From assembly GCA_022791135.1 (NCBI GenBank), contig JAAVYM010000083.1:1-64000 (forward strand): 64,000 nucleotides of DNA, in the 5' to 3' direction. The DNA comes from Oscillibacter sp. (GTDB taxonomy: Bacteria; Bacillota; Clostridia; Oscillospirales; Oscillospiraceae). The position numbers and the translations under genes are program-made. The stretch's first letter is position 1. Each line of letters starts with the position of its first letter. The notes below the pieces were generated by a model, which saw nothing but the letters and a program-made list of their open reading frames with translations, made no database searches and was not told where the DNA came from. Positions 44,183-59,941 of this stretch are shown here, piece by piece.

Positions 44183-44968
44183 CTATTCGGTGGCCTCCAA
44201 CTCGGCGGGACAGCCGGGATAGAGCAGACGGATATGGTTCTTTTGAATTACCGGGAGGAATTCATCGGGGGGACACTCGTCCGTAACGATGCCGCTGAGA
44301 CGTTCAAAGGGAAAGAAGGAGCGCACGCCGACAAGCCCGAACTTACTGTGGTCCGCCATCAGAATCACCTGAGAGCAGCTGCTGGTGACGCTTTGTTTGA
44401 TTTCCGCCTCCTGAAACGAGTAGTTGCTTAGCCCATGGTGAACCGAAACACAGGTAGCGGATATAAAGATAGTGTGAATATTGAGCTGGGAGAGTTCATC
44501 AATCACAGTATGCCCAGAAAAGGACTGCGTGCTGTGGTTGAAGAACCCACCCAATCCGATAATATTCAAAGAGGGATATTTTGCCGCCTCGCAGAGGACG
44601 GAAAGGCTGTATGTGATGACGGTAATATTTTGTTTGAAGGACAGGCTTTCCAGGATGTGGGGGGTGGTGGAACCAGAATCCAGAAAAATGACGGTGTTGT
44701 CCTCTACCAGCGTGGCGGCCAGCGACCCAATGGACTGTTTCTCCTGGAAGTGCACAGACTTCCGCTGGGTGTAGGGTGCGGCCGAAAGTTCCTCCTCCAC
44801 CGCGATGCCGCCGTATACTTTTTTGAAGCCGCCTTTGCCAATTAAAATGGCGATATCCCGTCGGGTGGTATTGGTAGAGATGTGAAAGTTTTCGGAGATA
44901 TCCGCAATGGTTGCACTGCCTTTGTCCTGGACATACTGTTCCAAAAGCCGTAATCTCTCAATTCTCAT
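44183..44968 (-). CDS. DeoR/GlpR family transcriptional regulator of the catabolic island
   Basis: 261 residues. The N-terminal DeoR HTH: RIERLRLLEQYVQDKGSATIADISENFHISTNTTRRDIAIL. The C-terminal DeoRC sensor domain (TTPHILESL, LSLNIIGLGGFF-type region, then GL.N.SFQEAEIKQ and MADHSKFGLVGVRSF) binds a sugar phosphate; the ADHSKFG motif is diagnostic. It faces away from the ABC transporter operon and most likely represses it until a phosphorylated intermediate appears. TTTATG/CATAAA inverted halves (44968-44973, 44990-44995) lie at its own start and could be an operator. Confidence 0.9.
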   Translation of the reverse strand: MRIERLRLLEQYVQDKGSATIADISENFHISTNTTRRDIAILIGKGGFKKVYGGIAVEEELSAAPYTQRKSVHFQEKQSIGSLAATLVEDNTVIFLDSGSTTPHILESLSFKQNITVITYSLSVLCEAAKYPSLNIIGLGGFFNHSTQSFSGHTVIDELSQLNIHTIFISATCVSVHHGLSNYSFQEAEIKQSVTSSCSQVILMADHSKFGLVGVRSFFPFERLSGIVTDECPPDEFLPVIQKNHIRLLYPGCPAELEATE

Positions 44969-45224
44969 TTATGATATGTCCACCTTTTCCATAAAAGTTC
45001 TTATTATTCTATCAAGTTGGGTTTTGGATGTCAACGGCAAGGACTGTCTGAAAGACGTTCAAGAATCGACATAAAACGGAGAAAAAGTCCAGATGTTTTC
45101 AGAGTGTGCGGCCCATTCCCATCGTATCAGGGGAAATTGGCACAGAGGGTATGCTTTTCGGGAACCGTTTGCAGAAAACGGGCAACGTTCTGCGTGGGAC
45201 GGAGAATGCCGTCCCAAAGTCTGT

Positions 45225-45629
45225 CTACCCGGCTGCGTCAGAAGGTGCGGGGGAATTTTCGGAGAAGTCAATCAGCACGCGGAGGACCGTTTTGTCATCC
45301 CGGGCGCGGAGAAAAGCGCTCATGCTGTCTTCCACCGGGTAGATAGCGGAGACCAGCTTTTCCAACTGGGTGTTCAGCACTCCGGAGTTTATGAGCTTTG
45401 CCGCGGTCTGCATGCTGGACATTGTGTGGTGCCGGTCCCCCGGAGTTCTATCTCACCGTAAATGATTTTGTCAATGTCGATGGAAAACCGCGTTCCCTTG
45501 GACGGCATGCCGGTCTGGACCATCACACCACCTTTTTTAGCTGCTCCAGGCAGGTTTCGAACCCTGCCTGAAGAGAGGTGCCTCTTGAATTTCGACCTTG
45601 CCGGAGTTGGTGAGTACAAGCTTTTTCAT
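45225..45629 (-). pseudogene. Zn-dependent MDR alcohol/polyol dehydrogenase, internally deleted
   Basis: From ATG 45629 (with CCAGGAGG upstream) a medium-chain dehydrogenase begins MKKLVLTNSGKVEIQEAPL. The catalytic and most Rossmann regions are then missing, and the text jumps to the C-terminal ETCLEQLKKGGVMVQTGMPSKG... DKIIYGEIELRGTG in a second frame and MQTAAKLINSGVLNTQLEKLV ... LRVLIDFSE in a third, ending at TAG 45225-45227. It is not functional. It is related in type to the three intact MDR genes at 56.7-59.9 kb. Confidence 0.7.
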
Positions 45630-45829
45630 AATTGGATCCTCCTGGTGTTTCGGGCGCAGGCGATGATGGCAAACAGGTGAATTCTTCCAGTACCTCACCG
45701 ACCCGGGAGGGAGTCGGAACCGCTCCCGTGAAAAGCTGTTCTGCCTGGAAGAGGCGGGCTGGGACAAGAGTCGTGACGCCTATGGCAAACCACGCCTGCT
45801 TGACGGACCATCCATTTCCAGTAGGGAGG

Positions 45830-46130
45830 CTATGTGAAAAATAGAAGTGAACAGTTCTTTGCGGGTGCCAGTCTTCCGAAATTCGGTCCGGTAATCCCAG
45901 GCGGGGAAGGGGGCAAAATGATCTCAGTGACCATTTCGTCCGGCTCCAGGACGGTCTTGCGGAGCAAGGAAGAAATTAGTCAGCGGTATTTCCTGGGTAT
46001 CCCGGATGCTGGTGAGGCGTACATGGGTGTCCGGTGCCAGGAGAGGGGGTGTCGGCGCTAGGGGTGTCTGTGCAGAGATTGCCGGCCAGGGTAACCACGT
46101 CCCGAATCTGCGGGAATGCGACCCAGCCAG
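45830..46130 (-). pseudogene. Xanthine dehydrogenase-type FAD-binding subunit (XdhB/CoxM) remnant
   Basis: The minus strand reads QIRDVVTLAGNLCTDTPSADTPSP, which matches the IRN.AT.GGN.....SAD..P block of FAD subunits of molybdenum hydroxylases. In another frame follows LTSIRDTQEIPLTNFFLAP, then KTVLEPDEMVTEIILPP in a third, ending at TAG (45830-45832 on plus). At least two frameshifts. Both ends of the gene are lost. No companion molybdenum or iron-sulfur subunit is in the window. Confidence 0.55.
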
Positions 46131-46577
46131 CGGCCCGCTGAAGAAAGCGGTGAGGGTTGCTTATTTAATAAAGAACTCTACTGGACGTTGGTGAGCGCTG
46201 CCAGCGCAGTGCCGCGCTCTGCCAAAAGAGCCAAAGCCTGGTCATGAGACTGGAGACAGGAACACTCTTTGACTCTCATCGCTTTTGACCAGTCTATTTG
46301 GTCGGCCTAACGCTCTTTTCCTTATTGAAGCAGGAAGTGTGCAGCAATAATTTTGGTTAAGTGATGATGTATTTTTGAGATAAATTGGGAAAAAATCGCA
46401 GAAATGGCGTGACGGACACACGAGCTTATCAAAAGTATACCAATTTAATTTTGGATTGTCAATCAAAAGATTAGAAATAGGAAAATTTTATGGTAATTAA
46501 TGAGTATTTTGTGAGATTCTTAAAAGTCTGCACAAAAAAATTGGGCATATTATGCGCGAAAACAAGCAGGAGACTTC
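46131..46577. other. AT-rich regulatory stretch upstream of the ABC operon
   Basis: No coding frame of quality. The base composition is strikingly AT-rich compared with both flanks. It leads into the two promoter-like elements at 46578 and 46686 and may hold operator or curvature elements; none is identified with confidence. Confidence 0.4.
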
Positions 46578-46606
46578 TTGACTTTCCCAATGAAAGGTGA
46601 TATTTT
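46578..46606 (+). promoter_or_regulatory. Distal promoter candidate of the catabolic operon
   Basis: TTGACT at 46578-46583, a 17-bp spacer and TATTTT at 46601-46606, 220 bp upstream of the binding protein gene. Confidence 0.45.
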
Positions 46607-46685
46607 AAACACAGAAAGTCAATTCTACGACATGTTTTTTGCGAGAGTGACCTATTTCTACTGTTTTTAAAATTTGCGACAAGAA

Positions 46686-46714
46686 TTGACGTATTTTTTA
46701 CCTTTGTCATAAAT
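46686..46714 (+). promoter_or_regulatory. Proximal promoter candidate of the catabolic operon
   Basis: TTGACG at 46686-46691, a 17-bp spacer and ATAAAT at 46709-46714. The CATAAA half-site also seen in the deoR-type promoter overlaps the -10 region (46708-46713), consistent with repression by that regulator. Confidence 0.55.
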
Positions 46715-46825: not shown

Positions 46826-48010
46826 ATGAAAAAGATTTGGAGTGTGCTGCTTTGCCTGACCATGATCCTCTCTCTGGCCGCCTGCGGAAATGGAAAGTCG
46901 ACTGAGGGGACAAATAACCCGCCTCAGACCGACCAGTCTGGAGAACCCGCGCAGTCTGACGACGCAAACGCCCCCAAGACCAGCGGATTGAAAATTGCCT
47001 ATTCCGTGGGCTATGTGGGCAACGCTTGGCGCAGCCAGCATGTGGCCAGCCTGGAGGAGGCCGCCGAAGCCTATAAGGCCGACGGCACCATCGCCGAATT
47101 CCAGGTGGTCTCCGCCGACAACGACAGTACGACCCAGATCAGCCAGTGCAACGCCATGCTGGCGGAGGGCCTGGACGCCCTGCTGATCTGCGCGGTTTCT
47201 CCTACGACGCTGACCTCGGTTGTTGAAACCGCCAAGGAAATGGGAACGCTGGTCGTCATCGCCAATGACCCTGCCGTTTACGAGGGAACCTACTGCGTGG
47301 TCAACAACGCTTATAAGTATTCCATGCTGTACAACCGCTGGTTTGCTACCCAGGTGGACGAGGGAGCCGGCGTGGTTTATATCAGCGGCAACCCCGGAAA
47401 CGGCACAGACATGATCCGCGACCAGGCCGTGTATGACGCCATTGAGCAGTACAAGTGGAACCTGCTGGCGGAGGCCCCCGGCAAGCGGAACCAGGCCGAG
47501 GCGCAGACCGTTATGACCACGTTCCTCTCCGCGTATCCCAATATCGAGGGCGTTCTCTGCCAGAACGTTACCACGGAGGGCATCATCAACGCCTACAAGA
47601 CCGTCGGTAAGGATCTGCCTCCTGTCTGCGGTGACAACGTTCTGAGCACGGTCCGCATGTGGGGCGAGCTGGGCGACTATGAGACCATCGGCGTGACAAA
47701 CTCGCCTGCCGTTTCTGCCGCCGCACTGCACTTCGCTGTGCTGATGCTGCAGGGCTATGAGCTGAAGGACGATGCGCTGACTGCCAATCCCCTGGACGAC
47801 TCCCTTATCAATGCGGTCCAGGTGGATCCCCCGGTGGCGATCACCCTGGACGGCACCCTGCCCGACGACATTATGGCGGACTATCCTCTGTTGACCGTCC
47901 TGTCCCGGGACGAGGCTCTGGAGATGTATAAGGATGAGGCGGACACCTATACGCCGGACAACGCCATGTCCCGTGAGGATGTCCTGAACACCTGGTTCAA
48001 AGCGTCATAA
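46826..48010 (+). CDS. Sugar ABC transporter substrate-binding lipoprotein
   Basis: 394 residues. The signal peptide ends in a lipobox (LSLAACG), followed by a Thr/Pro/Gln-rich linker. The mature part is a periplasmic-binding-protein type I (ribose/galactose class) fold: LKIAYSVGYVGNAWRSQH, FQVVSADNDSTTQISQC, GLDALLICAVSP, VYISGNPGNGTD and YPNIEGVLCQNVTTEGI. It captures a monosaccharide, polyol or sugar acid and feeds the ATPase and permeases encoded next. GGAGGAAG precedes ATG 46826. Ligand unknown. Confidence 0.9.
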   Translation: MKKIWSVLLCLTMILSLAACGNGKSTEGTNNPPQTDQSGEPAQSDDANAPKTSGLKIAYSVGYVGNAWRSQHVASLEEAAEAYKADGTIAEFQVVSADNDSTTQISQCNAMLAEGLDALLICAVSPTTLTSVVETAKEMGTLVVIANDPAVYEGTYCVVNNAYKYSMLYNRWFATQVDEGAGVVYISGNPGNGTDMIRDQAVYDAIEQYKWNLLAEAPGKRNQAEAQTVMTTFLSAYPNIEGVLCQNVTTEGIINAYKTVGKDLPPVCGDNVLSTVRMWGELGDYETIGVTNSPAVSAAALHFAVLMLQGYELKDDALTANPLDDSLINAVQVDPPVAITLDGTLPDDIMADYPLLTVLSRDEALEMYKDEADTYTPDNAMSREDVLNTWFKAS

Positions 48011-48144
48011 CCGGGCTGTCATGGATGGAGTCCCCCAAATAGGCAAGCTATAGTACTGCCGGCCCGGAGTTTGTATAAAAAACGAGGCTTTGACGCTTTT
48101 TGTACGGACTCTGGGGGCTGGCGGCAACGGTAGATGGTTCCGTT

Positions 48145-48430
48145 ATGAAGAGACTGCTCTGAACAGTATTGTGTGCTCTTCTGGTGTTATCCCTGGCCGC
48201 GTGCGGCAGTGAAAGACAGAACTCCCAGACAGAGGAGCCGGATTTCAGTGCGACTGCGCCGTCCGAAGGAGCAGGGAACGAGGCCAAGGCCAGCAGTCTG
48301 AAGATTGCGTGTTCCATCGGCTATGTGGGCAACGCATAGCGCAGCCAGCTGGTATTACGCGAGGACACCTATATCCCGGATGGCCCATGTCCCGGGAGGA
48401 GGCCATCAAGACCAGGTTTAAAGAGAAGTA
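48145..48430 (+). pseudogene. Truncated second copy of the substrate-binding protein
   Basis: From ATG 48145 a signal peptide (with an in-frame TGA at 48160), lipobox LSLAACG, an acidic linker and then SSLKIACSIGYVGNA-stop-RSQL parallel the first copy at 46826. The text then jumps to REDTYIPDGPMSREEAIKTRFKEK in another frame, which corresponds to the C-terminal YTPDNAMSREDVLNTWFK of the first copy. The middle of the gene is deleted. Two Trp-like codons have become stops (TGA, TAG). A tandem paralog that decayed. Confidence 0.8.
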
Positions 48431-48630: not shown

Positions 48631-50130
48631 ATGAGTTTACGCTGTGAATCGATCAGCAAGCACTACGGTTCGGTCATTGCGCTGGAAGATGCCTCCATTG
48701 AAGTGGAAAGAGGGGAGATCCGCGCTTTGCTGGGCGGAAACGGCTCCGGAAAAAGTACATTGGCAAAGGTGATCGGCGGTATTATCACCAAGAATTCCGG
48801 AAAGGTGGAGCTGGATGGGACGGAGGTCCACTTCGAATCGCCCCTGGAGGCAAAGAAGCATGGCGTTGTGGTGGCATCCCAAGAACTCAGCCTGTTTCAC
48901 AATCTGACCGTAGAGGAAAATATCTGTGCCTGTTCCCTGCCTAAGAAATTCGGCGCAACGCTTGATCGCAAGAAAATGCGCCAGATGACGCTGGATGTGC
49001 TGGACAAGTTAGAGCTGCGCAGCATCATTGATGTGCCGATGCGGGACCTCCCCGCGAACCAGAAATACATGGTGGAGTTTGCGAAAACGCTGGTCCAGCA
49101 GCCACGTGTGCTGATTCTCGACGAGATCACCTCGCCGCTTTATAAGGAAGACGTCCAAATCATAAAGCGCGTGATGTACGAGCTGCGGGACGCGGGTTGT
49201 ATCATTCTCTTCATCTCCCACCGGATGCACGAGCTGTTTGACATCTGCGATTCCGTTACGGTTATGAAAAACGGCGTCACGCTGTCTACCCACCGGATTC
49301 ATGAGACAAATGAATATCAGCTGCTCTCGCAGATGACGGGAATCAGCGAGGAGGAGCTGGAGCGCCGGAACCATGCGCTGAAAATGGGCGTTGAGGAGAC
49401 AGGGAAGGAACGGGACGACCGGACAATACTGTTGGACGTGCAGGGGATGAGGCTGAAGACTTTTGACACGGAAGTGAGCTTCACAGTCCGGGAGGGCGAC
49501 TTCGTGGGTCTGGCGGGCCTTCAGGGTCATGGCCAGTCCGACCTAATCCGTCAACTCTACGGCCTGAACGGCCATACCTCCTACGCGTTCCGAGGTAAGA
49601 CATTCGAGTGTGCTTCCGCACAGAAGGCGGTAAAGAGCGACATGGCCTTCCTCTCCGGGGACCGCACTGGCGAGGGAATTTATCCGGACCGCTCCATTGC
49701 CGAAAATCTAAAAAGCGTCGGAAATCTGGTGGTAAAAAAACCGATTAAGAAGGCCACAGATGTTTTGACCGCTTATGGGGTGAAGTACAACGGTCTGCCA
49801 AACCTGAAGATTACGTCCCTATCCGGAGGCAATCAGCAAAAAGTCGTGGTGGCCCGGTGGCTGGCGACGGATCCGAAGCTACTGCTGGCGGACGACCCCA
49901 CAAAGGGCATCGACGTTCAGGCGCGCTACGACCTGCACCGCTCCTTTATTGATTTGGCAAACCGGGGTTCCGGCGTTGTGATGGTGTCCAGCGACGACGA
50001 GGAACTGGTGGAACTGTGCCGTATGACCCCAAATTCCCGCGTCATTATCATGTATGAAGGTCATATTTCCAAGGTTTTGACCGGTGATGACATCACGGTT
50101 GAAAATATCATCGCCTATTCGTTTAACTAG
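48631..50130 (+). CDS. Sugar ABC transporter ATP-binding protein, RbsA/MglA type (two NBDs)
   Basis: 499 residues, two nucleotide-binding domains. NBD1: LLGGNGSGKSTLAKVIGGI (Walker A), VASQELSLFHNLTVEENI, an unusually weak signature (DLPANQKYMVEFAKTL) and LILDEITSPLY (Walker B). NBD2: degenerate Walker A (GLAGLQGHGQSDLIRQLYG), LSGGNQQKVVVARWLA signature and LLLADDPTKGIDV. Asymmetry of this sort is normal in monosaccharide importers. It energises import through the two permeases. TAAGGAG lies upstream of ATG 48631. Confidence 0.92.
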   Translation: MSLRCESISKHYGSVIALEDASIEVERGEIRALLGGNGSGKSTLAKVIGGIITKNSGKVELDGTEVHFESPLEAKKHGVVVASQELSLFHNLTVEENICACSLPKKFGATLDRKKMRQMTLDVLDKLELRSIIDVPMRDLPANQKYMVEFAKTLVQQPRVLILDEITSPLYKEDVQIIKRVMYELRDAGCIILFISHRMHELFDICDSVTVMKNGVTLSTHRIHETNEYQLLSQMTGISEEELERRNHALKMGVEETGKERDDRTILLDVQGMRLKTFDTEVSFTVREGDFVGLAGLQGHGQSDLIRQLYGLNGHTSYAFRGKTFECASAQKAVKSDMAFLSGDRTGEGIYPDRSIAENLKSVGNLVVKKPIKKATDVLTAYGVKYNGLPNLKITSLSGGNQQKVVVARWLATDPKLLLADDPTKGIDVQARYDLHRSFIDLANRGSGVVMVSSDDEELVELCRMTPNSRVIIMYEGHISKVLTGDDITVENIIAYSFN

Positions 50131-50146: not shown

Positions 50147-51145
50147 ATGAAAGATAAAATTAAAAAAATCGGAAAATGGTCGTCTCTTCCGGCGATTGTG
50201 CTGTTGGCGGTGCTGTTTGCATACAACGGCATTTTGAACCCCGGGTTTTTCAAAAAAACCACATTTTTTACTTTCCTGCTCTCCAGTACGCCCATGGTGT
50301 GCATTGTGATCGGCGTGTGCACGTGTAAGATTGTCGGCGGTATTGACATTTCACTTGGAAACCTGCTGAGCCTGATCAATGTCACCATGGCTTACCTGTT
50401 CAGCAGCACCGATATGGCGGCGCCGCTGATTATCCTGATTGGCCTGTTGATTGGCCTGGGCGGCGGTTTGCTGAATGGCATTTGTATCGGTGTGCTGCGG
50501 GTGAATCCTCTGCTGGCGACATTTGCCACCAGCTCTGTTTACTGGGGGCTGGCACTGTGGATTATGCCGACGCCCGGAGGATACGGCGTCCCGCGGGAGC
50601 TGATCTCCTTCGTTAACCGGACCCATTTCGGCATTTTGCCCACGGCGGTGATTGCCTTGGCAATCCTGGTGATTCTCTGGCTGGTATACATGAAGAGCAT
50701 CTACGGCATCTCGATTTACGGAATTGGCGGCAATGAGCAAAGCGCCTATGTCTCCGGCATGAACGTCGCCCAGGGCAAGGTTTTGGCCCACGTGTTTGGT
50801 GGCTTCTGCGCTTTTGTGGGCGGGTTGGTGGCTACCGGTTTGATTGCCTCCGGCGACCCCAATATCGGCACCGAGTTCAGCCTGAAGGCTGTGACGGCGG
50901 TTGTAATCGGCGGCGTGGCGCTGAGCGGCGGAGAGGGCGACGTCTGGGGCGCACTGGCTGGCGGCTTCTTCCTGAGCACGATTTTGATCGCGATCATCAG
51001 CTCCAAGGTTCCCACATTCGCGCAGAATTTCGCAAACTATTCCATCATGCTCTGCGGCTTGGTTCTGGCGGTGGTGATCAAACTCGGCGCAGAGTACTAT
51101 CGGACCCGCGCCAAAAGAAAGCAGTCCGAGGAGGTGCGGCCATGA
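50147..51145 (+). CDS. Sugar ABC transporter permease 1 (RbsC/XylH type)
   Basis: 332 residues and about ten helices. The BPD_transp_2 fold is recognised by GGIDISLGNLLSLINV near residue 65, LRVNPLLATFATSSVYWGL, GISIYGIGGNEQSAYVSGMNV (cytosolic coupling segment) and VIGGVALSGGEGDVWGALAGG. It forms half of the membrane channel together with the next gene. GGGGAGGA precedes ATG 50147. Its stop overlaps the start of permease 2 (ATGA). Confidence 0.92.
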   Translation: MKDKIKKIGKWSSLPAIVLLAVLFAYNGILNPGFFKKTTFFTFLLSSTPMVCIVIGVCTCKIVGGIDISLGNLLSLINVTMAYLFSSTDMAAPLIILIGLLIGLGGGLLNGICIGVLRVNPLLATFATSSVYWGLALWIMPTPGGYGVPRELISFVNRTHFGILPTAVIALAILVILWLVYMKSIYGISIYGIGGNEQSAYVSGMNVAQGKVLAHVFGGFCAFVGGLVATGLIASGDPNIGTEFSLKAVTAVVIGGVALSGGEGDVWGALAGGFFLSTILIAIISSKVPTFAQNFANYSIMLCGLVLAVVIKLGAEYYRTRAKRKQSEEVRP

Positions 51146-52110
51146 ACAAGCAGGCCTTGGCGAAAAGCGTCTATTCCAAGTTCAAAGACTACATTCCGGC
51201 AGCGGGTGCCATTGTGGCTCTGGGACTGATCAGCACCATCTTGATTGATGGTTTTATGAACGCAAACAACATTGGCGCCATTTTGCTGCGGGCCAGCGTC
51301 CTCGCCATTGTCGCCATGGGTGTGACTTTTGTCGTCACGGCGGGAGATAGCGGCCTGGACCTCTCCACCGGATCGCTGATGGTGGTCGGCGCTATGGTGG
51401 GGCCGAACCTGCGCTTCGGCGGGCAGGAGTCTCTGATCTTGAGCTTTCTTGTGGTTATGGTGATCGGCATGCTGATCGGATGTGTCAACGGCGTTGGGAT
51501 CTACTACCTGAAGATTCCCGCGCTGGTGATGACCATGGCTATGAATGGCCTTGTAACAGGCTTTTGTATCCTGCTGACCAGATCGCAGCTGACTGTGAAT
51601 CTGCCTGCAAAATTGGTGGCGTTGAACGACGTGGTGGTGGAACCTTTCCGGAAGATGACGCTGCTGGTGGCGGTGGTGATGATCCTGCTGCAGCTGATGC
51701 TGACAAAGAGCAAATTTGGCCAGATGCTGCAGCTGACCGGCAACAACCGTCAGGCGGCTCGCCTAAACGGAATCCCTGTGGCGGCCATTGCCGTGGGCGT
51801 TTACGGCATCAGCTCCGCCATGGCGGCGGTGGGCGGCGTGCTACTGGCCGGGTACACAGGACTTGTCCACATCGACATGACCGCCGAGTATCCCATGCAG
51901 GCCATGGCAGCTGTGATCATCGGCGGCACCCATGCCGCCGGCGGCGTGGGGAGCTTCGTGGGCAGCGTCATGGGTGCGATTGTGCTGACGCTTCTCAACA
52001 GCGTGCTTTTGGCGTTCAACATGCCCGCCGGGGCGAGAACTTTTATACAGGGTCTGGTGCTCCTGGGGGTGCTGATTATCAATAACCGCTCGGCAAAGCT
52101 TCGCCAGTGA
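51142..52110 (+). CDS. Sugar ABC transporter permease 2 (RbsC/XylH type)
   Basis: 322 residues, BPD_transp_2 fold. VTAGDSGLDLSTGSLMVVGAM, LKIPALVMTMAMNGLVTGF, GQMLQLTGNNRQAARLNGIPV and AAVIIGGTHAAGGVGSFVGSV are the usual motifs. Two different permease genes here imply a heterodimeric channel. ATG 51142 overlaps the permease 1 stop. Confidence 0.92.
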   Translation: MNKQALAKSVYSKFKDYIPAAGAIVALGLISTILIDGFMNANNIGAILLRASVLAIVAMGVTFVVTAGDSGLDLSTGSLMVVGAMVGPNLRFGGQESLILSFLVVMVIGMLIGCVNGVGIYYLKIPALVMTMAMNGLVTGFCILLTRSQLTVNLPAKLVALNDVVVEPFRKMTLLVAVVMILLQLMLTKSKFGQMLQLTGNNRQAARLNGIPVAAIAVGVYGISSAMAAVGGVLLAGYTGLVHIDMTAEYPMQAMAAVIIGGTHAAGGVGSFVGSVMGAIVLTLLNSVLLAFNMPAGARTFIQGLVLLGVLIINNRSAKLRQ

Positions 52111-52149: not shown

Positions 52150-53136
52150 ATGCTCATAATTGATGCGCACAGCCACTTTTTGCCGGATACAGTGATCGAT
52201 CACATCCGCAAGCACAAGGACCGCTTCCGCTCGGCAATCGTGGTAAAAGATGGGCGGGAGTTTGTGTGGGATTACGCCGGCGCCCTGTATCCACTTTATC
52301 GCGAGTATTACGATGCTGGCGCGAAGATTGCCGATTTGGACAAAATGGGCATTGATATGGCGGGGCTGCCCCTGGTGCCGAACGCGTATTACTACTGGAT
52401 CGAGCCGGAGGCGGCCTTGGAAATCCACCGGATGAGCAACGATTGGGTGTCGGACTTCTGCGCGGCGCGCCCTGGGCGCTTTCGGGGAATGATCAGCGTT
52501 CCCATGCAGGATCCCGGTTTGGCCCTGCAGGAGCTGCGCCGGGGCCATGAGGCCCTGGGCATGAACGCGCTGGCCATCGCGCCCATGATCAACGAGACCC
52601 ATCTGGACGCGGAGGCGTTTTACCCCATCTACGAATACTGTGCCGACCACGGCGTCCTGCTGCACCTGCACCCATGCTTTCCCAGGTGCAAGGAGGAGCT
52701 AACCTCGTATTACAACATAAACCTGGTGGGAAATGTTTACCAGACCAGCCTGGGACTCAACCACTTGATCTTCGGCGGTATTTTTGAGAAATACCCCGGC
52801 CTGCAAGTCTTTGCCTCCCACGGCGGCGGGTACTTCCCCTATCAGATGGGACGGCTGCGGCATGGATATTCCGTCCGAGAAGAGCCGCATGCCCACATTT
52901 CAAAATCCCCGGAGCAGTACGCGGGCCACCTTTATTTCGACACGATTACCCATTGGACCGCGGCGCTTCAATTCCTGACGGATCAGTTCGGAAGCGACCA
53001 CGTGATGATCGGTACGGACTACCCCTTTGACATGGGGGACTACCAGCCGGTGGAGCATGTAGAGGCGCTGAGGCTGACCGCCCAGGAGCGAAAGAATATC
53101 TTTGGTGAAAATGCGGCGAAGCTGTTCCGGATTTGA
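52150..53136 (+). CDS. Amidohydrolase (COG2159, TIM-barrel metal hydrolase) of unknown substrate
   Basis: 328 residues. IIDAHSHFLPDTVID supplies the N-terminal HxH-type metal site, VLLHLHPCF a second His, VFASHGGGYFPYQMGRLRHGY a third and MIGTDYPFDMG the catalytic Asp. This is the amidohydrolase_2/ACMSD-like family: decarboxylases and lactonases. In a sugar island it most likely hydrolyses a lactone or C-C bond; no substrate is proven. AAGAAGGAG precedes ATG 52150. The kinase starts within its last codons (TTGA). Confidence 0.85.
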   Translation: MLIIDAHSHFLPDTVIDHIRKHKDRFRSAIVVKDGREFVWDYAGALYPLYREYYDAGAKIADLDKMGIDMAGLPLVPNAYYYWIEPEAALEIHRMSNDWVSDFCAARPGRFRGMISVPMQDPGLALQELRRGHEALGMNALAIAPMINETHLDAEAFYPIYEYCADHGVLLHLHPCFPRCKEELTSYYNINLVGNVYQTSLGLNHLIFGGIFEKYPGLQVFASHGGGYFPYQMGRLRHGYSVREEPHAHISKSPEQYAGHLYFDTITHWTAALQFLTDQFGSDHVMIGTDYPFDMGDYQPVEHVEALRLTAQERKNIFGENAAKLFRI

Positions 53137-54134
53137 ACCCGGAGGGCAGGCTGAAGCAGCAAAAACGGGAGGTGCTGAGACTGAGCATTTTGTGTGTGGG
53201 GGAGATGGTGGCCGATATCGTGGTCAGGCCGGTCCCCGCCATGGATACGTTGCCGGACAGCGTGACCGTGGAACAGATTGACATTGTAAACGGCGGCGAC
53301 GCGCTGAACACAGCGGTTGGTCTTGGACGGATGGGCTGCGAGGTTTCTTTTATCGGACGGGCCGGGAACGACGAGTTTGGGCGGAAGATCATAGAGACCG
53401 CCCGGTCGGCTGGCGTCTGTATGGACCACGTCCGCTATTCCTCAAGGCGGGCCAGCTCCAAAGTTATCGCCCTGATCCGGGAAGACGGCGCACGGAATTT
53501 CCTGCACTGCCCGGGTTCCAACGAGGAGTTCTGCCTGGACGACATCCCCGAGGCCGTACTGCGGGAGCACCGGCACTTTCACATCGGCGGAACCTTCCAT
53601 CTTCCGGCGTTCGACGGCTTTGGAGCCGCAGAGGCCCTGCGGCGGGCGAAAGCCCTGGGCCTTACCACCAGCATGGATGTGGCCTTTGACCACAGTGGCC
53701 GCTGGCTGGAGACCATTCGATGCTGCATGCCTTTTCTGGATTATTTCCTGCCCAGTCTGGGGGAGGCGGAGTGCATGCTGCACACAAGCGCCCCCAGGGA
53801 AATTGCAGCGGCGCTGAAAGAGCTGGGCGCAAAAAATATTATCCTCAAAATGGGAGAGGGAGGTTCCTACTGCAGTCCGGAGACCGGAGGGGCGTTTGCC
53901 TGCGGATGCTACCATGTGGACACGGTGGATACCACCGGGGCGGGAGACGCCTTTGTAGGCGGCTTTATCGGTGCACTGGACCGGGGGGAGCCACTGAGGG
54001 AATGCGTTGTTTGGGGCACGGCCGCCGCCGCCTTCACGGTGCGGTCGGTGGGCGCCTCTACCGGAATCCCAGATTATAAGACCCTTCTTCACTTTATCAA
54101 TTCTACAGAACGGTTGGCGATTGAATTTGAATAA
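53133..54134 (+). CDS. PfkB-family carbohydrate kinase
   Basis: 333 residues from TTG 53133. The ribokinase fold: ILCVGEMVADIVVRP, NGGDALNTAVGLGRMGCEVSFIG and the C-terminal signature DTTGAGDAFVGGF with the catalytic Asp. The start is uncertain: TTG 53133 overlaps the amidohydrolase stop (TTGA) without a clear ribosome site, and GGGAGGTG at 53167-53174 would suit a shorter protein beginning near LSILCVGEM at a rare CTG/TTG codon. It probably phosphorylates a keto-sugar or sugar acid produced by the dehydrogenases, preparing it for the aldolase. Confidence 0.88.
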   Translation: MNPEGRLKQQKREVLRLSILCVGEMVADIVVRPVPAMDTLPDSVTVEQIDIVNGGDALNTAVGLGRMGCEVSFIGRAGNDEFGRKIIETARSAGVCMDHVRYSSRRASSKVIALIREDGARNFLHCPGSNEEFCLDDIPEAVLREHRHFHIGGTFHLPAFDGFGAAEALRRAKALGLTTSMDVAFDHSGRWLETIRCCMPFLDYFLPSLGEAECMLHTSAPREIAAALKELGAKNIILKMGEGGSYCSPETGGAFACGCYHVDTVDTTGAGDAFVGGFIGALDRGEPLRECVVWGTAAAAFTVRSVGASTGIPDYKTLLHFINSTERLAIEFE

Positions 54135-54978
54135 TACATACCGGGACATGCTGCGGGAAGCGCGGCAGGGGGGTTATGCGATCCCCGCGTTTAATTACAC
54201 GGACAGTTGGGAGTTTTTGGCGGTCATGGAGGCGGCGGAAGAGCTGGACGCGCCGGTCTACGCCGCGTCGGCTAGGAACACCGTAGATATCATGGGCGTG
54301 GACACATGCGGAATCCTGGGCACCCTCGCTTACAAAAGGACCCAGGGGAACTTGCTGAATCACTTGGATCACTGCGCCAGTGTCCAGCGCTGCAAGGCGG
54401 CGGTGGACGCAGGTTACCACTCCGTGATGTACGACGGGTCCGCACTTCCCCTGGATGAAAATGTCCAAAACAGCCGGATGGTTTCCTCCTATGCCAAGGA
54501 GCGGGGTGCGTTCATGGAGGGCGAGGTAGGACAGATCCTGGGCCGGACAGAGGAGGGCCGCTATTCCGGCGGCGCCTATATCGCCCGTATCGAAGACTGC
54601 ATCCGCATGGTGGAAGAGGGAGGCGTGACCTCCCTGGCGATTGGAATCGGAAACCGGCACGGCTTCTATAAAACGACGCCGAAGCTGAACATCCCGCTTT
54701 TGGCGCAGGCGTCCGCCGTGCTGGATATTCCCCTGGTTTTGCACGGGAGCAGCGGCCTGGACCCGGAGGTGATCCGGGCGTGCATCCAAAACGGCATCAG
54801 CAAGGTAAATGTGGGGACGGAGCTGCACTACACCTATAAGAGCAAGGTGCAGGAGGTCATCGGGAAGAATCCGGAGGACTACGCGATTACCAGCTTCGCC
54901 CTTCCGGCCAAGGAGGCCATGAAGGAAGTGGCGCGCCGCTGGATCAAACTGTGCGGCGCGGAAGGAAAACGGCATTGA
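54127..54978 (+). CDS. Class II ketose-bisphosphate aldolase family (Zn-dependent)
   Basis: 283 residues from TTG 54127 (TTG 54121 and ATG 54148 are in the same frame). Class II features: GGYAIPAFNYTDSWEF, HLDHCASVQRCKAAVDAGYHSVMYDGSALPLDENV (catalytic Asp-His region), EVGQILGRTEEG, IGNRHGFYKTTPKLNI, LVLHGSSGLDPEVIRACIQNGISKVNVGTEL with Zn ligands and phosphate-binding residues. It cleaves a phosphorylated ketose to DHAP (or similar) and an aldehyde. It overlaps the kinase by 8 bp, pointing to stepwise action. Confidence 0.9.
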   Translation: MNNTYRDMLREARQGGYAIPAFNYTDSWEFLAVMEAAEELDAPVYAASARNTVDIMGVDTCGILGTLAYKRTQGNLLNHLDHCASVQRCKAAVDAGYHSVMYDGSALPLDENVQNSRMVSSYAKERGAFMEGEVGQILGRTEEGRYSGGAYIARIEDCIRMVEEGGVTSLAIGIGNRHGFYKTTPKLNIPLLAQASAVLDIPLVLHGSSGLDPEVIRACIQNGISKVNVGTELHYTYKSKVQEVIGKNPEDYAITSFALPAKEAMKEVARRWIKLCGAEGKRH

Positions 54979-55031: not shown

Positions 55032-55859
55032 ATGAGTGCGATTGGAGTTGGCAAGTGGAAGGTTACCACCATCGACTGTGGCTGGCATATTGGAAATAAG
55101 GTCAATTTGACGCCCGGCAAGGACGACGCCCCGGTGAAACTGCCCTATCTTGCGTTTTTGCTGCAGGACGGCGAGAAGAATATCCTGATTGACAACGGCA
55201 TCAACGAGCGCTTCCTCATCGACGGAAAGGCCTGGGGCGGCGCGCCTGCCGAGTGCGGTGAGAAGGACGTGGTGAATTCCCTGGCAAAGGTTGGATTGAA
55301 GCCCTCCGACATCGACGTGATGCTGTACACGCACCTGCACAATGACCACGCGGGCAACGCGCAGCTGTTCATGAACACACGCTCCTATGCCCAGTTTGAC
55401 GACTTTGACAACCTGCTGAACCCCTGCTACGGCGAGACGGTCCGCCGGGATCATGACCCGGAGGTAATTCCGTTCTTGCGCCAGAATCCCAATCTGGTTT
55501 TGATCGAGGGCGACATGGACCTGATGGAGGGCATCCGCCTCATCAAGACGCCCGGGCACACCCGCGGCTCTCAGAGTATTGTGGTCAACACCACCAAGGG
55601 CCTGCGGATCTTCGTGGGCGATCTGTTCCACCTGCGGTGCATGGCCTTCCCCACGATGACCGAGATGAAGGACTACGACGGAAAGACCGTGAAGATCACG
55701 CCCTATGACGCGGGCGTGCCCTGTGTGGCGTCCACGCTGATCTACGACCACTATGCCCTGTACAAGAGCTATGACAAGGTCCGCGCCTATTGCCCCGAGT
55801 GGAAGCCGGAGTACCTCATCTGCGGCCATGAGTCTGCGCACCTGTACGGTGAAATCTGA
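55032..55859 (+). CDS. MBL-fold metallo-hydrolase (AttM/AhlB-like lactonase type)
   Basis: 275 residues. YTHLHNDHAGNAQLF is the HxHxDH zinc motif, FDNLLNP and PGHTRGSQSIVV (third His), VGDLFH and the C-terminal ICGHESAHLYGEI add further ligands. Its closest look is the quorum-quenching lactonase group that hydrolyses gamma-butyrolactone-type rings. In this operon a role in opening an oxidised sugar lactone is plausible, in parallel to or instead of the amidohydrolase. AATGGAGG lies upstream of ATG 55032. Confidence 0.85.
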   Translation: MSAIGVGKWKVTTIDCGWHIGNKVNLTPGKDDAPVKLPYLAFLLQDGEKNILIDNGINERFLIDGKAWGGAPAECGEKDVVNSLAKVGLKPSDIDVMLYTHLHNDHAGNAQLFMNTRSYAQFDDFDNLLNPCYGETVRRDHDPEVIPFLRQNPNLVLIEGDMDLMEGIRLIKTPGHTRGSQSIVVNTTKGLRIFVGDLFHLRCMAFPTMTEMKDYDGKTVKITPYDAGVPCVASTLIYDHYALYKSYDKVRAYCPEWKPEYLICGHESAHLYGEI

Positions 55860-55888: not shown

Positions 55889-56686
55889 ATGATTGAGAAA
55901 TTTGGAACGGCCTCCAGCATTTTCAGCGTAGAGGGGAAAAAGGCGCTGATTACCGGCGGGTCCAAGGGCCTTGGCCGCGCCATGGCGCTGTGCCTGCTGG
56001 AAAACGGCTGCGACGTGTTTTTGACCAGCCGCAATGTGGAAAGCTGCAAGGAGATCGCGGAGTATGCCGTGTCTTTGGGGAGGGCGTGCTTCTATAAATC
56101 CTGCGACGTGACCCTGACGGAGCAGGTGATCGAGATGGTGGAGCAGGCGAACCGGGACATGGGCCGGATCGACATCCTGATCAACTCTGCCGGCGGCTGC
56201 ATCCTCAAATTCCTGCCGGAGATGGATGACGACAGCTGGGACAAGGTCATCAATATGAACCTGCGCTCGACGTTCATCGTGACCAGGGAGGTCTGCAACC
56301 GGGCGATGATCCCCCAGCACTACGGCAAGATCATCAACCTGTCCTCCATGAAGAGCGTCCTGGGCACCGCCCTCACCGGGCATTCCGCCTACGCAGCGTC
56401 CAAGGGCGCCGTCAGCATGCTGACCAAGCAGCTGGCATGCGAGCTGGCCCAGTACGGCATTACCGTCAGCGCCCTGGGTCCCACGTTCATCAAGACAGAC
56501 ATCAACGCCAAGCTTCTGGAGGATCCGGGCTTCCGCGATCCCCTGGTTCGCCGCATCCCCATTGGGAGAATCGGCGAGTTCAAGGATCTGATGGGCCTGA
56601 TGCTCCTGTGTGCCTCGGACGCCTCGGAGTTCCTTACGGGGCAGACGTATTTGGTGGATGGCGGCATCGCGTCCCGACAGGAATAA
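55889..56686 (+). CDS. SDR family oxidoreductase (gluconate 5-dehydrogenase-like)
   Basis: 265 residues. ALITGGSKGLGRAMAL is the TGxxxGxG coenzyme loop, LINSAGGCILK the NNAG-like loop, NLSSMKSVLG with catalytic Ser, and SAYAASKGAV with the YxxxK pair (Y-A-A-S-K). ALGPTFIKTD is typical of the classical SDR subfamily acting on sugar acids. Likely NAD(P)-dependent oxidation or reduction of a keto-acid/polyol in the pathway. A GGAAGTGAAGG-type site precedes ATG 55889. Confidence 0.9.
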   Translation: MIEKFGTASSIFSVEGKKALITGGSKGLGRAMALCLLENGCDVFLTSRNVESCKEIAEYAVSLGRACFYKSCDVTLTEQVIEMVEQANRDMGRIDILINSAGGCILKFLPEMDDDSWDKVINMNLRSTFIVTREVCNRAMIPQHYGKIINLSSMKSVLGTALTGHSAYAASKGAVSMLTKQLACELAQYGITVSALGPTFIKTDINAKLLEDPGFRDPLVRRIPIGRIGEFKDLMGLMLLCASDASEFLTGQTYLVDGGIASRQE

Positions 56687-56740: not shown

Positions 56741-57805
56741 ATGAAGAGTCAGATGATGAAAGCCGCCGTTCTCTACGGGGACGAGGACATTCGCTATGAA
56801 GATGCGCCCATGCCGGAGCTGAGGCCCGGAGAGGTCAAGGTCCGGGTGCGGGCGGCGGGAATCTGCGGGTCCGATATTCCCCGGGTGTTTCAGTCCGGCG
56901 CGTTTTATTACCCCATTATTTTGGGGCATGAGTTTTCCGGCGAGATTGTGGAGACCTGCGGCGAGGTAAACGGCCTGAGGACCGGCGGCTGCGTGGTGGG
57001 GGCGCCGCTTGTGCCGTGCATGAAGTGCGGCGACTGTCAGAAGGGAAACTACGCCTCCTGTAAGCAGTACAGCTTTTTCGGCTCCAAGCGGCAGGGGGCA
57101 TTTTGCGACTATGTTGTCATGCCGGCGATTCACGCCGTTCCCTTTGACCGGGAACGGATATCCTTCCAGCAGGCCGCCATGTTTGAGCCGGCCACCGTGG
57201 GGCTTCACGGCCTGTTCTGCGGAGATTACCAGGGCGGCGGCGAGGTTGCGATCCTGGGCGGCGGGACCATCGGCCTGTTTACCATGCAGTGGGCCAGGAT
57301 TTTTGGGGCGAAGCACATCACGGTGTTTGACATTGACGATCAGCGCCTGGAATTCCTGAGGGGCTATGGGGCGGATTACACGGTCAATACCCGCCGGGAG
57401 TCGTTTATGGAGGAGGCGTTGGCGGTGACCGGCGGCGCGGGCTTCGATTATGTATTTGAAACGGCGGGGCAGAGCGCCACCATGAACATCGCCTTTCAAA
57501 TTGCGGCCGTGAAGTCCCGGCTCTGCTTTATCGGAAACCCCCATAAGGATGTCGTATTTCCCCCGGCCACCTGGGAGCTGATGAACCGCAAGGAATTCCG
57601 GCTGACTGCGTCGTGGATGTCGTACTCCCCGCCATATCCGGGGCGGGAGTGGTCCCTGACCGCCCATTTTTTGCGGGAGGGGCAGCTGAAGATTACGGAC
57701 GATCTGATTTATAAGACCTATCCCATGAGCCAGGCGAAGGAGGCGTTCTTAAATTTCAAATCCGGCCCGGTCCCGGGAAAGGTGCTGCTGCTGAATGAGG
57801 ATTGA
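56741..57805 (+). CDS. Zn-dependent MDR dehydrogenase 1 (galactitol-phosphate/sorbitol dehydrogenase-like)
   Basis: 354 residues. Catalytic Zn ligands in GICGSDIPRVF and GHEFSGEIVE; structural Zn lobe complete, CMKCGDCQKGNYASC (four Cys). The Rossmann loop is ILGGGTIGLFTMQW. GAKHITVFDIDDQRLE has an Asp after strand 2, suggesting NAD(H). The ordering matches galactitol-1-phosphate 5-dehydrogenase-like enzymes, but the substrate is not deducible. GTGGAGGAAAG precedes ATG 56741. Confidence 0.9.
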   Translation: MKSQMMKAAVLYGDEDIRYEDAPMPELRPGEVKVRVRAAGICGSDIPRVFQSGAFYYPIILGHEFSGEIVETCGEVNGLRTGGCVVGAPLVPCMKCGDCQKGNYASCKQYSFFGSKRQGAFCDYVVMPAIHAVPFDRERISFQQAAMFEPATVGLHGLFCGDYQGGGEVAILGGGTIGLFTMQWARIFGAKHITVFDIDDQRLEFLRGYGADYTVNTRRESFMEEALAVTGGAGFDYVFETAGQSATMNIAFQIAAVKSRLCFIGNPHKDVVFPPATWELMNRKEFRLTASWMSYSPPYPGREWSLTAHFLREGQLKITDDLIYKTYPMSQAKEAFLNFKSGPVPGKVLLLNED

Positions 57806-57808
57806 CAA

Positions 57809-58861
57809 ATGGAACGGTTTATGAGATCAGTGGCTGTTTTGGCGGCGGGCCGCGCGCAGATAGTGAAGGACGTCCCGGTTCCGAAACCGGAGGGCTATGA
57901 GGCGCTGGTCAGGGTTCATGCCTGCGGGTTTTGCAACGGAACGGATTTTCAGATCATCAAGGGCACGCTGCCATCCCATGAGGGCATGCAGCCCTTTCCC
58001 ACACTCCTGGGACACGAAGGGGCAGGGGAGGTGGTGGAGCTGGGTCCCAAGGCGCGGCATATCCGGCTGGGGGACCGCTTTCTCCACCCAAATCTTCGAA
58101 GCGCTCCGGGAAACGGCTACAGCAAGACCTATGGAGGTATGTCCGAGTACGGCCTGGTGGTGGACTATCAGGCCATGCGGGAGGACGGATATGAAGGTCC
58201 GCTTCCCTTTTCGGGAAAATGCGCGAGGGTTCCCCGGACGTGGGAGTACACCGATATCGCCATGCTCTTGTCTCTGAGCGAGAGCCTGAGCGCTGCGAAA
58301 AATTTCGGGGTTGGCCCCGGGAGCCGGGCCTTGGTGTATGGGGTCGGACCCATGGGGCTGGCGCTGATGAAGTACATGCGGATACTTGGGGCAAAGGAGA
58401 TTGTAGCAGTAGACCGGCTGGACGACCGTCTGGAGCGGGCTGGCCGGATCTGCGGCATCGATCAGGCTGTCAACACGGCCCGGGAGGACATCCATGCGGC
58501 GCTTGGTGAGCGGCAGTTTGACGTGGCGGTGGACGCGGTGGGGGCGTCGGGTATTCTGTTGGAGGCGTCTTCTTTCTTAAAGTCCGGAGGCAGGGTTGGC
58601 TCCATGGGGGTTTTGCGCCAGGGAGACACTTGCGTCGATATCACGCGGCTGAAAAACAATACGATGATTCAGCTGCTGAATCTTCCCTGTGGGGAATATG
58701 CCGTCATGGAGGAGAATATCCGAATGATCGAGGAAGGGCGGATCGACCCCAGGCAGTTCTACTCCCACGTCCTGCCCCTGGAGGAAATCGAGACCTGCCT
58801 GGAGCTGGTGCGGCGGAAAGAGGCGCTGAAGGTCATTTTGACGATGCGGCCATCCGTGTAG
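57809..58861 (+). CDS. MDR dehydrogenase 2, lacking the structural zinc lobe
   Basis: 350 residues. Catalytic ligands FCNGTDFQII and LGHEGAGEVVEL are present, but the four-Cys structural lobe is replaced by HPNLRSAPGNGYSKTYGG with no cysteines. The coenzyme loop is VYGVGPMGLALMKYMR, followed by VAVDRLDDRLERA (Asp: NAD). The C-terminus has INMLE-like IRMIEEGRIDPRQFYSHVLPLEE. It starts 3 nt after the first MDR gene. Substrate unknown; it is clearly a distinct subfamily from its two neighbours. Confidence 0.88.
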   Translation: MERFMRSVAVLAAGRAQIVKDVPVPKPEGYEALVRVHACGFCNGTDFQIIKGTLPSHEGMQPFPTLLGHEGAGEVVELGPKARHIRLGDRFLHPNLRSAPGNGYSKTYGGMSEYGLVVDYQAMREDGYEGPLPFSGKCARVPRTWEYTDIAMLLSLSESLSAAKNFGVGPGSRALVYGVGPMGLALMKYMRILGAKEIVAVDRLDDRLERAGRICGIDQAVNTAREDIHAALGERQFDVAVDAVGASGILLEASSFLKSGGRVGSMGVLRQGDTCVDITRLKNNTMIQLLNLPCGEYAVMEENIRMIEEGRIDPRQFYSHVLPLEEIETCLELVRRKEALKVILTMRPSV

Positions 58862-58891
58862 CCCGATGCGCAAAGAGATGGAGGAATGAAC

Positions 58892-59941
58892 ATGAAAGCC
58901 TTGGTCAAAATCAAGCACGGCCCGGACTGTACGCGGTACATGGACGTACCGGAGCCGGTCCCGGGGGATGACGATATTAAGGTAAAGGTCTACGCCTGCG
59001 GGATTTGCGGGACGGACCTCCACCTGATGCTGGATGAGTATCCCAGCGATCCTCCCCGCATCACGGGGCATGAGTTCTCCGGCGTCGTAGTGGAGGCGGG
59101 GAAAAACGTCCGAAAGTTCAAGGCCGGAGATCGCGTCGTCACGCTGACGGCCGTGGACACCTGTGAGGACTGTTTGTGGTGCAGCCTGGGCCTGCGGATG
59201 CTTTGCAATGAAAGAAAAAGCGTTGGCAGCGGCTGCGACGGCGGCTTTGCGGAGTATGTGGTTATTCCGGCGAAGCACGCGTTTTTGATTCCGGAGGGGG
59301 TGTCCCTGCAGACGGCGGCGCTTTGCGAGCCGTTGGCATGCGTCTGCCGGGGCGTGTGTGAGCGCACGTCCATCAAGGCTGGAGACTATATACTTGTGGC
59401 GGGAGCGGGCATCATGGGCCAGCTGACGGCGCAGGTTGCCATGGCCAACGGCGGCATCGTGATCATGACGGGCCTAGAGAGCGACGAGGAACGGTTTGCG
59501 CTGGCCCGAAAACTGGGCGTTTATGCCACGGTCCGCGTCGACGAGGGAGACCCGCTGGCCCGCATCCTGGAGCTGACGGAGGGGCTGGGGGCGCACACGG
59601 CCTTTGAGTGCTCCGGGGCGGCGGCATCCGCCGAGTTCTGCCTACAGGCGCTCAGGAAGACCGGAAATTACACACAAATTGCCATTCCCGGTAAACCCAT
59701 TCCCTATAATATGGACCTGGCGCTATATAAGGAGATCACGATTTCCAACAGCTACGCGTCGGAGCGGACTTCCTGGCTGATTGCGCTGCGTCTTCTGGAA
59801 AAGAAGCTGATTCACATTGAGGATATGATCAGCGCGGTTATGCCGCTGGAGGAGTGGGAAAAGGGCTTTCAGCAGACGATGGAGAAGCGGGCGTTCAAGG
59901 TGCTGCTGGCTCCCCATGCTCTGGAGGAGTGGCAGGAGTAA
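58892..59941 (+). CDS. Zn-dependent MDR dehydrogenase 3 (polyol dehydrogenase-like)
   Basis: 349 residues from ATG 58892, which has AGATGGAGG 7 nt upstream; ATG 58886 is too close to it. Catalytic: GICGTDLHLML and TGHEFSGVVVEAG; structural lobe CEDCLWCSLGLRMLC (four Cys). Coenzyme loop VAGAGIMGQLTAQVA. Sorbitol/threonine-dehydrogenase-like family. Last gene of the catabolic island, no terminator is obvious until 60.2 kb. Confidence 0.9.
   Translation: MKALVKIKHGPDCTRYMDVPEPVPGDDDIKVKVYACGICGTDLHLMLDEYPSDPPRITGHEFSGVVVEAGKNVRKFKAGDRVVTLTAVDTCEDCLWCSLGLRMLCNERKSVGSGCDGGFAEYVVIPAKHAFLIPEGVSLQTAALCEPLACVCRGVCERTSIKAGDYILVAGAGIMGQLTAQVAMANGGIVIMTGLESDEERFALARKLGVYATVRVDEGDPLARILELTEGLGAHTAFECSGAAASAEFCLQALRKTGNYTQIAIPGKPIPYNMDLALYKEITISNSYASERTSWLIALRLLEKKLIHIEDMISAVMPLEEWEKGFQQTMEKRAFKVLLAPHALEEWQE

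Follow-up and report, generated by a model that had tools for sequence, protein, structure and literature searches.

A rare Oscillibacter operon resembling the Escherichia coli ydj cluster and its possible role in the catabolism of an unusual sugar acid or sugar lactone

The Escherichia coli K-12 ydj cluster (ydjE-L) is an incompletely understood group of genes within which NCBI names YdjH as an L-glycero-L-galacto-octuluronate kinase and YdjI as the aldolase of its 1-phosphate. According to one report, YdjH and YdjI prefer long-chain monosaccharides with carboxylate ends and the best known YdjI substrate has no natural abundance (PMC9602453); a review names the aldolase reaction as one with dihydroxyacetone phosphate (DHAP) and L-arabinuronate (PMC11194214). 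Here we describe thirteen genes at positions 44183-59941 of a 64,000-nucleotide stretch of Oscillibacter sp. DNA, hereafter the window (GenBank assembly GCA_022791135.1, contig JAAVYM010000083.1, positions 1 to 64,000). Contig C12, to which the window belongs, is one of 119 in a genome of 2.55 Mb that is 84.5% complete. The operon they form is rare and resembles the ydj cluster. With moderate confidence we favour a reading in which this DeoR-linked operon serves the breakdown of an unusual sugar acid or lactone, or of a sugar first made into one, and would lead via a keto-acid to DHAP and an aldehyde acid. Searches of a library of openly licensed papers listed none whose title or opening abstract lines describe this cluster.

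Gene content and comparison with described systems

An initial annotation had assigned coordinates, strands and families to a DeoR regulator, an ABC importer, an amidohydrolase, a kinase, an aldolase, a metallo-β-lactamase (MBL)-fold protein, a short-chain dehydrogenase/reductase (SDR) and three medium-chain dehydrogenases/reductases (MDRs). Open reading frame positions and Pfam families (DeoR, Peripla_BP_4, ABC_tran, BPD_transp_2 twice, Amidohydro_2, PfkB, F_bP_aldolase, Lactamase_B, adh_short and ADH_N/ADH_zinc_N three times) bear out all thirteen genes:

44183..44968, - strand: DeoR-family regulator (Pfam DeoRC and HTH_DeoR)
46826..48010, + strand: substrate-binding lipoprotein SBP1 (Pfam Peripla_BP_4; 92% identical to that of locus L017, described below)
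48631..50130, + strand: CUT2-type ATPase with two ABC domains (Pfam; best NCBIfam match AraG, 343 bits, cut-off 689)
50147..51145, + strand: permease 1 (Pfam BPD_transp_2)
51142..52110, + strand: permease 2 (Pfam BPD_transp_2)
52150..53136, + strand: ACMSD-family amidohydrolase (Pfam Amidohydro_2; PDB ACMSD decarboxylases, 182 bits)
53181..54134, + strand: YdjH-like PfkB kinase (PDB YdjH 141 bits, next 86; panel YdjH 150 bits, next 76)
54121..54978, + strand: class II (DHAP-type) aldolase, overlapping the kinase gene (Pfam F_bP_aldolase; panel KbaY 160, GatY 147, YdjI 122 bits)
55032..55859, + strand: lactonase-like MBL-fold hydrolase (Pfam Lactamase_B; AiiA 64 bits)
55889..56686, + strand: gluconate 5-dehydrogenase-like SDR (NCBIfam PRK08213 234 bits, cut-off 279; IdnO, the sole SDR in the panel, 152 bits)
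56741..57805, + strand: GatD-like MDR1 (PDB GatD 242 bits; panel GatD 235, next 129)
57809..58861, + strand: MDR2, a distant zinc dehydrogenase common to related loci (best panel match 92 bits)
58886..59941, + strand: YdjL/Tdh-like MDR3 (panel YdjL 171, Tdh 144 bits, a small margin among 26 chosen proteins)

The panel comprises 26 hand-chosen E. coli proteins scored in bits, and the NCBIfam scan, run with curated model cut-offs, took in the products other than DeoR and the permeases. From the ATPase gene at 48631 to the end of MDR3 at 59941 adjacent genes overlap or lie at most 54 bases apart, as the description of overlapping or close genes had implied; the start codons of the kinase and aldolase genes are uncertain.

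The regulator (25%), kinase (29% to YdjH), aldolase (30% to YdjI) and MDRs (29% each to YdjJ and YdjL) have homologues in the ydj cluster, and with ydjF, H, I, J and L thus accounted for, the earlier statement that the combination matches no known operon was too strong. The two clusters nevertheless differ: ydj has annotated transporters, YdjE and YdjK, where the window has an ABC importer, and the methylglyoxal reductase YdjG where the window has the SDR, and neither a YdjG-type reductase nor YdjE/YdjK transporters occur among the thirteen window genes. Conversely, ydjE-L is without the MBL gene, the ACMSD-family gene and the binding protein, and the window aldolase and MDR1 are closer to other E. 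coli families. The galactitol (gat) operon is alike in that MDR1 is GatD-like and the aldolase KbaY/GatY-like, but a phosphotransferase system and GatZ are not among the thirteen genes, and the GatD (286 of 550 bits) and GatY (221 of 383 bits) models miss their cut-offs. The L-idonate (idn) pathway is echoed by the IdnO-like SDR and by an IdnD-like fifth dehydrogenase, MDR4, in the relative described below, yet the cluster is without an IdnK-type kinase and has an aldolase route in its place. For myo-inositol catabolism, the IolC (5-dehydro-2-deoxygluconokinase) model reaches 118 of 300 bits with the kinase, for which it ranks second, and the IolM (scyllo-inosose 3-dehydrogenase) model 100-175 of 450 bits with the MDRs.

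A candidate route and the enzymes behind it

In the proposed sugar-acid or lactone route, the CUT2 importer would take up the substrate, MDR and SDR enzymes would oxidise it to a keto form and the MBL protein would open a lactone, leaving a carboxylate. The YdjH-like kinase would phosphorylate the CH2OH beside the ketone and the class II aldolase would cleave the product to DHAP and an aldehyde acid, the latter to be reduced or oxidised by a remaining dehydrogenase; the ACMSD-family enzyme may decarboxylate a beta-keto acid by-product or isomer. The sequence data establish the gene families, their order, the selection on them, the recurrence of the module and the decay of the divergent arm, whereas the substrates, all reactions and the sequence in which they occur are inferred. 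The chemistry suggested at the outset (uptake, oxidation, opening of a ring or lactone, phosphorylation and aldol cleavage) fits the gene families and related loci in the genus that group importer, MDR2-type dehydrogenase, hydrolase, kinase and aldolase, and inference alone can narrow the original choice of polyol, deoxy sugar or sugar acid towards a sugar acid or lactone. IolC/IolJ and YdjH/YdjI alike use a ketone that has a CH2OH beside it and a carboxylate at the other end of the chain, and yield DHAP together with an aldehyde acid. A lactonase releasing a carboxylate and C5-type dehydrogenases forming a ketone would suit such a substrate, and we therefore favour a sugar acid or lactone that passes through a keto-acid before phosphorylation and cleavage.

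The kinase provides the closest tie to ydj, YdjH being its best match in the PDB and in the panel by a wide margin; the tagatose kinase (95 of 420 bits) and fructokinase (78 of 450 bits) models score well below their cut-offs. Given the reported preference of YdjH and YdjI for carboxylate-ended sugars (PMC9602453), this likeness points to a sugar acid or lactone. The same is suggested by the SDR, nearest to the gluconate 5-dehydrogenase model, and by MDR4 of the relative, nearest to L-idonate 5-dehydrogenase. MDR2 is closest to YdjJ (92 bits, next 83), a small margin in a panel of this size and selection.

The MBL protein, nearest to lactonases, is a further point for the sugar-acid or lactone reading. 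Its HxHxDH metal motif is present against AiiA (thlhndhag aligned with shlhfdhag, then pgh with pgh), the NCBIfam model of this acyl-homoserine lactone lactonase is matched at 87 of 375 bits, short of the cut-off, and a 4-pyridoxolactonase model is matched at 66 bits. MBL homologues in genomes G233 and G032 (34-46% identity) have no enzyme partner directly adjoining; ABC ATPase genes lie near the homologue in L009 and L013, an SDR gene about 6 kb off in L013 and a second MBL gene in L012. Genome G032 (L010-L013) carries four paralogous MBL-fold lactonase-like genes at separate sites, 34-44% identical to that of the window.

Of the two hydrolases once described as lactonase-like, only the MBL protein keeps that description. 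A lactonase reading of the amidohydrolase is rejected, as solved-structure matches and alignment place the protein in the ACMSD family; no NCBIfam model matches it at E 0.001. Its relatives were collected from 77 loci in other genomes, 30 of which lack a full-length stop-free row; the other 47 gave 48 rows (two from L026), making 49 sequences with the query, and 29 of the 48 rows entered alignment A3. H7, H9, H174, H224, R235 and D290 occur in 49 of 49 sequences and align with ACMSD, D290 being conserved partly through selection of hits since it lies inside the search pattern DYPFDMGD; these residues include the metal ligands of ACMSD and its catalytic His. Arg47 of the human enzyme, a functional residue in ACMSD, is matched by Pro in the human alignment and by Tyr in the bacterial alignment (4ign has Ala there, 4igm Arg). 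Without an arginine at this place the enzyme is probably not ACMSD itself. It is likely a decarboxylase or C-C hydrolase; its matches among solved structures include the meta-cleavage C-C hydrolase LigY.

The importer spans 46826-52110 and has the components of a CUT2 sugar importer, namely a two-ABC-domain ATPase, BPD_transp_2 permeases and a Peripla_BP_4 binding protein. A separate, sugar-acid-like locus with an importer of the same type occurs in another genome of the genus, G334 (L153, positions 822-16449). There the order is binding protein, ATPase, permease, permease and then an MBL-fold gene, the first four being 34, 48, 35 and 42% identical to those of the window. On its other side, within about 10 kb, lie D-threonate-kinase-like, fumarylacetoacetate-hydrolase-family, HpcH/HpaI and DHDPS-family genes and a divergent MDR, all with NCBIfam scores below cut-off; HpaG and 2,4-didehydro-3-deoxy-L-rhamnonate hydrolase are near-equal best models for the fumarylacetoacetate-hydrolase-family gene. 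As several of these neighbour families serve sugar acids, they hint, without amounting to proof, that the importer type may serve acids or lactones, and the threonate-kinase-like and rhamnonate-hydrolase-like genes beside an importer of the same order are consistent with the proposed route.

Conservation, recurrence and decay

The whole set was found in one other genome, an uncultured Oscillibacter metagenome-assembled genome (MAG), at locus L017 (CAMXNV010000006.1). This contig is apparently identical with G365:C6 (L136), both being 25,949 bases long and giving identical matches to the window. Twelve of the thirteen genes lie in the same order on this contig, DeoR being on a separate one (G365:C136), and protein identities to the window are 82-97%. 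Nei-Gojobori dN/dS is 0.023-0.133 for twelve of the thirteen genes, DeoR included (0.046); the MBL gene was left out because of frame breaks near its start in the relative. As these ratios show, the cluster genes are kept by selection, and together with the conserved order they indicate that the gene set is more than a chance grouping. The frame change at the start of the relative's MBL gene (L017, L136) is either a MAG error or decay.

Beyond this relative the operon is rare. In the counts that follow the window's own genome is included, family and class samples were drawn from larger groups and so do not show absence elsewhere, and absences are weak because in some genomes only part of the candidates was scored (at most five in the MDR2 class search and six in the binding-protein family search). 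At E 1e-50, 5 of the 86 genus genomes contain an MDR2 match, and at E 1e-60, 3 of the 391 class genomes do. Family genomes with a match number 3 of 300 for the MBL protein, 1 of 200 for the amidohydrolase, 2 of 250 for the kinase, 1 of 300 for the aldolase and 1 of 300 for the binding protein; in the genus the binding protein is found in 3 of 86 genomes, only G334 being added to the window genome and the full relative (E 1e-50). Among the 77 amidohydrolase loci the rest of the cluster is present in L017 only. In the plasmid collection MDR2, the kinase and the MBL protein have no match at E 1e-40. Among 30 listed of 82 plasmid records matching the aldolase, the annotated ones are tagatose- or fructose-bisphosphate aldolases. 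The amidohydrolase matches 488 plasmid records, 20 of them listed at 29.7-37.1% identity, with surroundings unlike the cluster in the two viewed; one fragment matched among viral contigs. Rarity is what remains of the original term island: the GC content of the cluster is 58.3% against 57.4% for the window, and a recent foreign origin by composition is rejected for want of contrast.

In all five genus genomes with MDR2 or a homologue, its locus also encodes a sugar kinase, a class II aldolase, a hydrolase and CUT2 importer components. A PfkB kinase is combined with an MBL protein in the window genome and in G365, an FGGY kinase with an MBL protein in G334, and a PfkB kinase with a PF04199 cyclase in G369 and G337. 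By similarity the five would represent about three lineages. MDR2 is 89% identical in the full relative and 45-51% in other homologues, of which those in L101/L148 (G334), L102 (G369) and L104 (G337) are at 50-51%; these loci differ from the window in their kinase or hydrolase, and the ACMSD-family gene, MDR1 and MDR3 were not found at E 1e-5 in the stretches examined. The recurrence of MDR2 beside CUT2 genes, an aldolase, a kinase and a hydrolase of the MBL or cyclase type argues for the sugar-acid or lactone reading. Outside the genus, G402 has an MDR2 homologue (45%) whose contig of 11.7 kb carries no such partner; this homologue (L105) has one internal TAA. In G435 the MDR2 contig, at 3.2 kb, is too short to judge partners, and in G224 a YdjH-like kinase (31%) lies with aldolase and CUT2 genes, no MDR2 being seen within 20 kb.

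Part of the original locus has decayed, namely a divergent arm and a second binding-protein gene. The DeoR gene does face the importer, as first described; the 1.9 kb gap between them holds broken genes. Remains and candidate sites are as follows:

45006..45034, - strand: promoter-like site preceding the DeoR gene (TTGACA-17-TAGAAT; 11 of 12 in a pattern scan, a consensus match only)
45252..45662, - strand: remains of MDR4, the fifth dehydrogenase, broken over three frames (tblastn pieces, 74-88% to the MDR4 part in L135)
45679..46282, - strand: broken remains of a molybdenum hydroxylase FAD subunit, XdhB type (pieces 37-74% identical to L017:2324-3205, some with stops)
46434..46462, - strand: promoter-like site of the lost divergent arm (TTGACA-17-TATACT; 11-of-12 consensus match, both hexamers kept in L017)
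46578..46606, + strand: promoter-like site of the importer-enzyme operon (TTGACT-17-TATTTT; 9 of 12, surroundings mostly kept in L017)
48133..48428, + strand: remains of the second substrate-binding gene, SBP2, with most of the middle gone (tblastn pieces to L017 SBP2, residues 5-78 at 61% and 382-399 at 72%)
60224..60260, + strand: terminator-like stem-loop of 15 pairs after MDR3

Promoter-like sites number 15 against 7.7 +/- 3.4 in shuffles, and single sites prove little; terminator-like sites over the whole region show little excess (22 against 16.9 +/- 4.4). In the Oscillibacter relative SBP2 is unbroken; it shares 72% identity with SBP1 of the window. The MDR4 remains match the end of G365:C6 both as DNA (81% at 45259-45584) and in translation (45549-45662). 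That end holds the first 100 or so residues of an MDR, while contig C136 starts with the remainder of an MDR followed by DeoR; the order of the remains in the window suggests that the two parts are one gene, MDR4, and that the contigs adjoin. The FAD-subunit remains are matched as DNA at 45686-46195 (72%). The relative's divergent arm, which faces the importer, encodes a xanthine-dehydrogenase-family hydroxylase, with unbroken open frames for the FAD and iron-sulphur subunits. Its molybdenum subunit is read in pieces in differing frames (L017, L136), which MAG frame errors or real decay could both explain, and the hydroxylase cannot be called intact.

DeoR has a 91% identical homologue on G365:C136, the promoter-like site ahead of it falls within the aligned stretch, and it scores highest in the panel with YdjF (105 bits; AgaR 91), a small margin among chosen proteins. 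Its survival as a whole gene, kept with the enzyme arm after the other arm was lost, suggests, short of proof, that DeoR controls the enzyme arm. A candidate operator, a perfect 9-base inverted repeat at 46618-46626 and 46682-46690, was rejected: it is missing from the relative's aligned stretch, and 10 of 100 window shuffles gave at least two matches.

Alternative routes and implications

Several observations weigh against the sugar-acid or lactone reading. None of the scanned enzymes reaches a curated NCBIfam cut-off. The aldolase, although homologous to YdjI, is closer to KbaY and GatY, and MDR1 is nearest to GatD, both of which also fit a polyol or plain ketose. Outside the window genome and G365 the kinases of the module are not YdjH-like, that of G334 being of the FGGY type and that of G337 scoring RbsK 70, YihV 67 and YdjH 52 bits, and the G402 homologue of MDR2 stands apart from the module. 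Nor does this reading account well for the ACMSD-family enzyme or the lost molybdenum hydroxylase.

A cyclitol could instead be the substrate: two oxidations of an inositol-like ring by MDRs would give a diketone, and hydrolysis of a C-C bond in it, by the MBL protein or the amidohydrolase, would give the keto-acid for kinase and aldolase. The IolM/IolN pathway of Thermotoga is the model for such double ring oxidation and C-C hydrolysis. IolM ranks second for MDR1, first for MDR2 and third for MDR3 in NCBIfam, and the second-ranked kinase model and the C-C hydrolase structure match fit as well. All these models are far below cut-off, however, a generic MDR in L153 likewise has IolM on top, and no Gfo/Idh-type inositol dehydrogenase, dehydratase or isomerase is present among the thirteen genes, and we regard a cyclitol route as unlikely. 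A route in which the GatD-like dehydrogenase converts a polyol to a ketose, to be phosphorylated and split by the KbaY/GatY-like aldolase with the hydrolases as accessories, draws on the GatD match of MDR1 (235-242 bits), on the KbaY/AgaY match of the aldolase (157-160 bits) and on the pentoses and polyols that CUT2 importers often carry. It would leave the MBL and ACMSD-family enzymes without a task, though the latter is under purifying selection (dN/dS 0.13), and the kinase is nearest YdjH rather than tagatose kinase or fructokinase; we find this route similarly doubtful. Least probable of all is a sugar linked to a heterocycle or aromatic ring, in which the ancestral hydroxylase and ACMSD-family decarboxylase would have dealt with the ring, and the kinase and aldolase with the sugar. 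In its favour, the large-subunit piece of the relative's divergent hydroxylase is nearest to nicotinate dehydrogenase among solved structures, the MBL protein matches 4-pyridoxolactonase, and L018 (115-6110; MAG Oscillospiraceae bacterium TD116_bin26) has a CUT2 ATPase and permease, one gene that neither Pfam nor NCBIfam matched at the thresholds applied, an ACMSD-family gene (50%) and, directly after it, molybdenum hydroxylase subunits beginning with the FAD subunit. Against it, the window genome has kept the enzyme arm but has a broken hydroxylase. In NCBIfam the closest models for the large-subunit pieces are those of xanthine dehydrogenase and 4-hydroxybenzoyl-CoA reductase, all far below cut-off, and hydroxylase subunits lie near the amidohydrolase in 14 of 77 loci, only at 29-48% identity besides L017 and L018, so that the link may be loose.

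A bolder form of the sugar-acid or lactone reading, offered as speculation that we do not expect to hold in full, is that the complete locus to which the Oscillibacter MAG points specifies a pathway not yet described, whose substrate would be a sugar derivative bearing a lactone or ring. In it the molybdenum hydroxylase, five dehydrogenases, the lactonase and an ACMSD-type decarboxylase would prepare a carboxylated ketose for the YdjH-like kinase and class II aldolase, giving DHAP and an aldehyde acid, and the scheme, its components being interchangeable (MBL or cyclase, PfkB or FGGY), would serve several substrates in the genus. If true, this pathway would be a natural setting for the orphan YdjH/YdjI chemistry. 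Should the substrate prove to be a common polyol, the interest of the operon would be small. A YdjH-related kinase with a dedicated importer, a lactonase-like enzyme and dehydrogenases in one operon offers, by way of its binding protein, a means of finding which class of substrate is the natural one; the proposed pathway would also add a sugar-acid route to the Oscillospiraceae.

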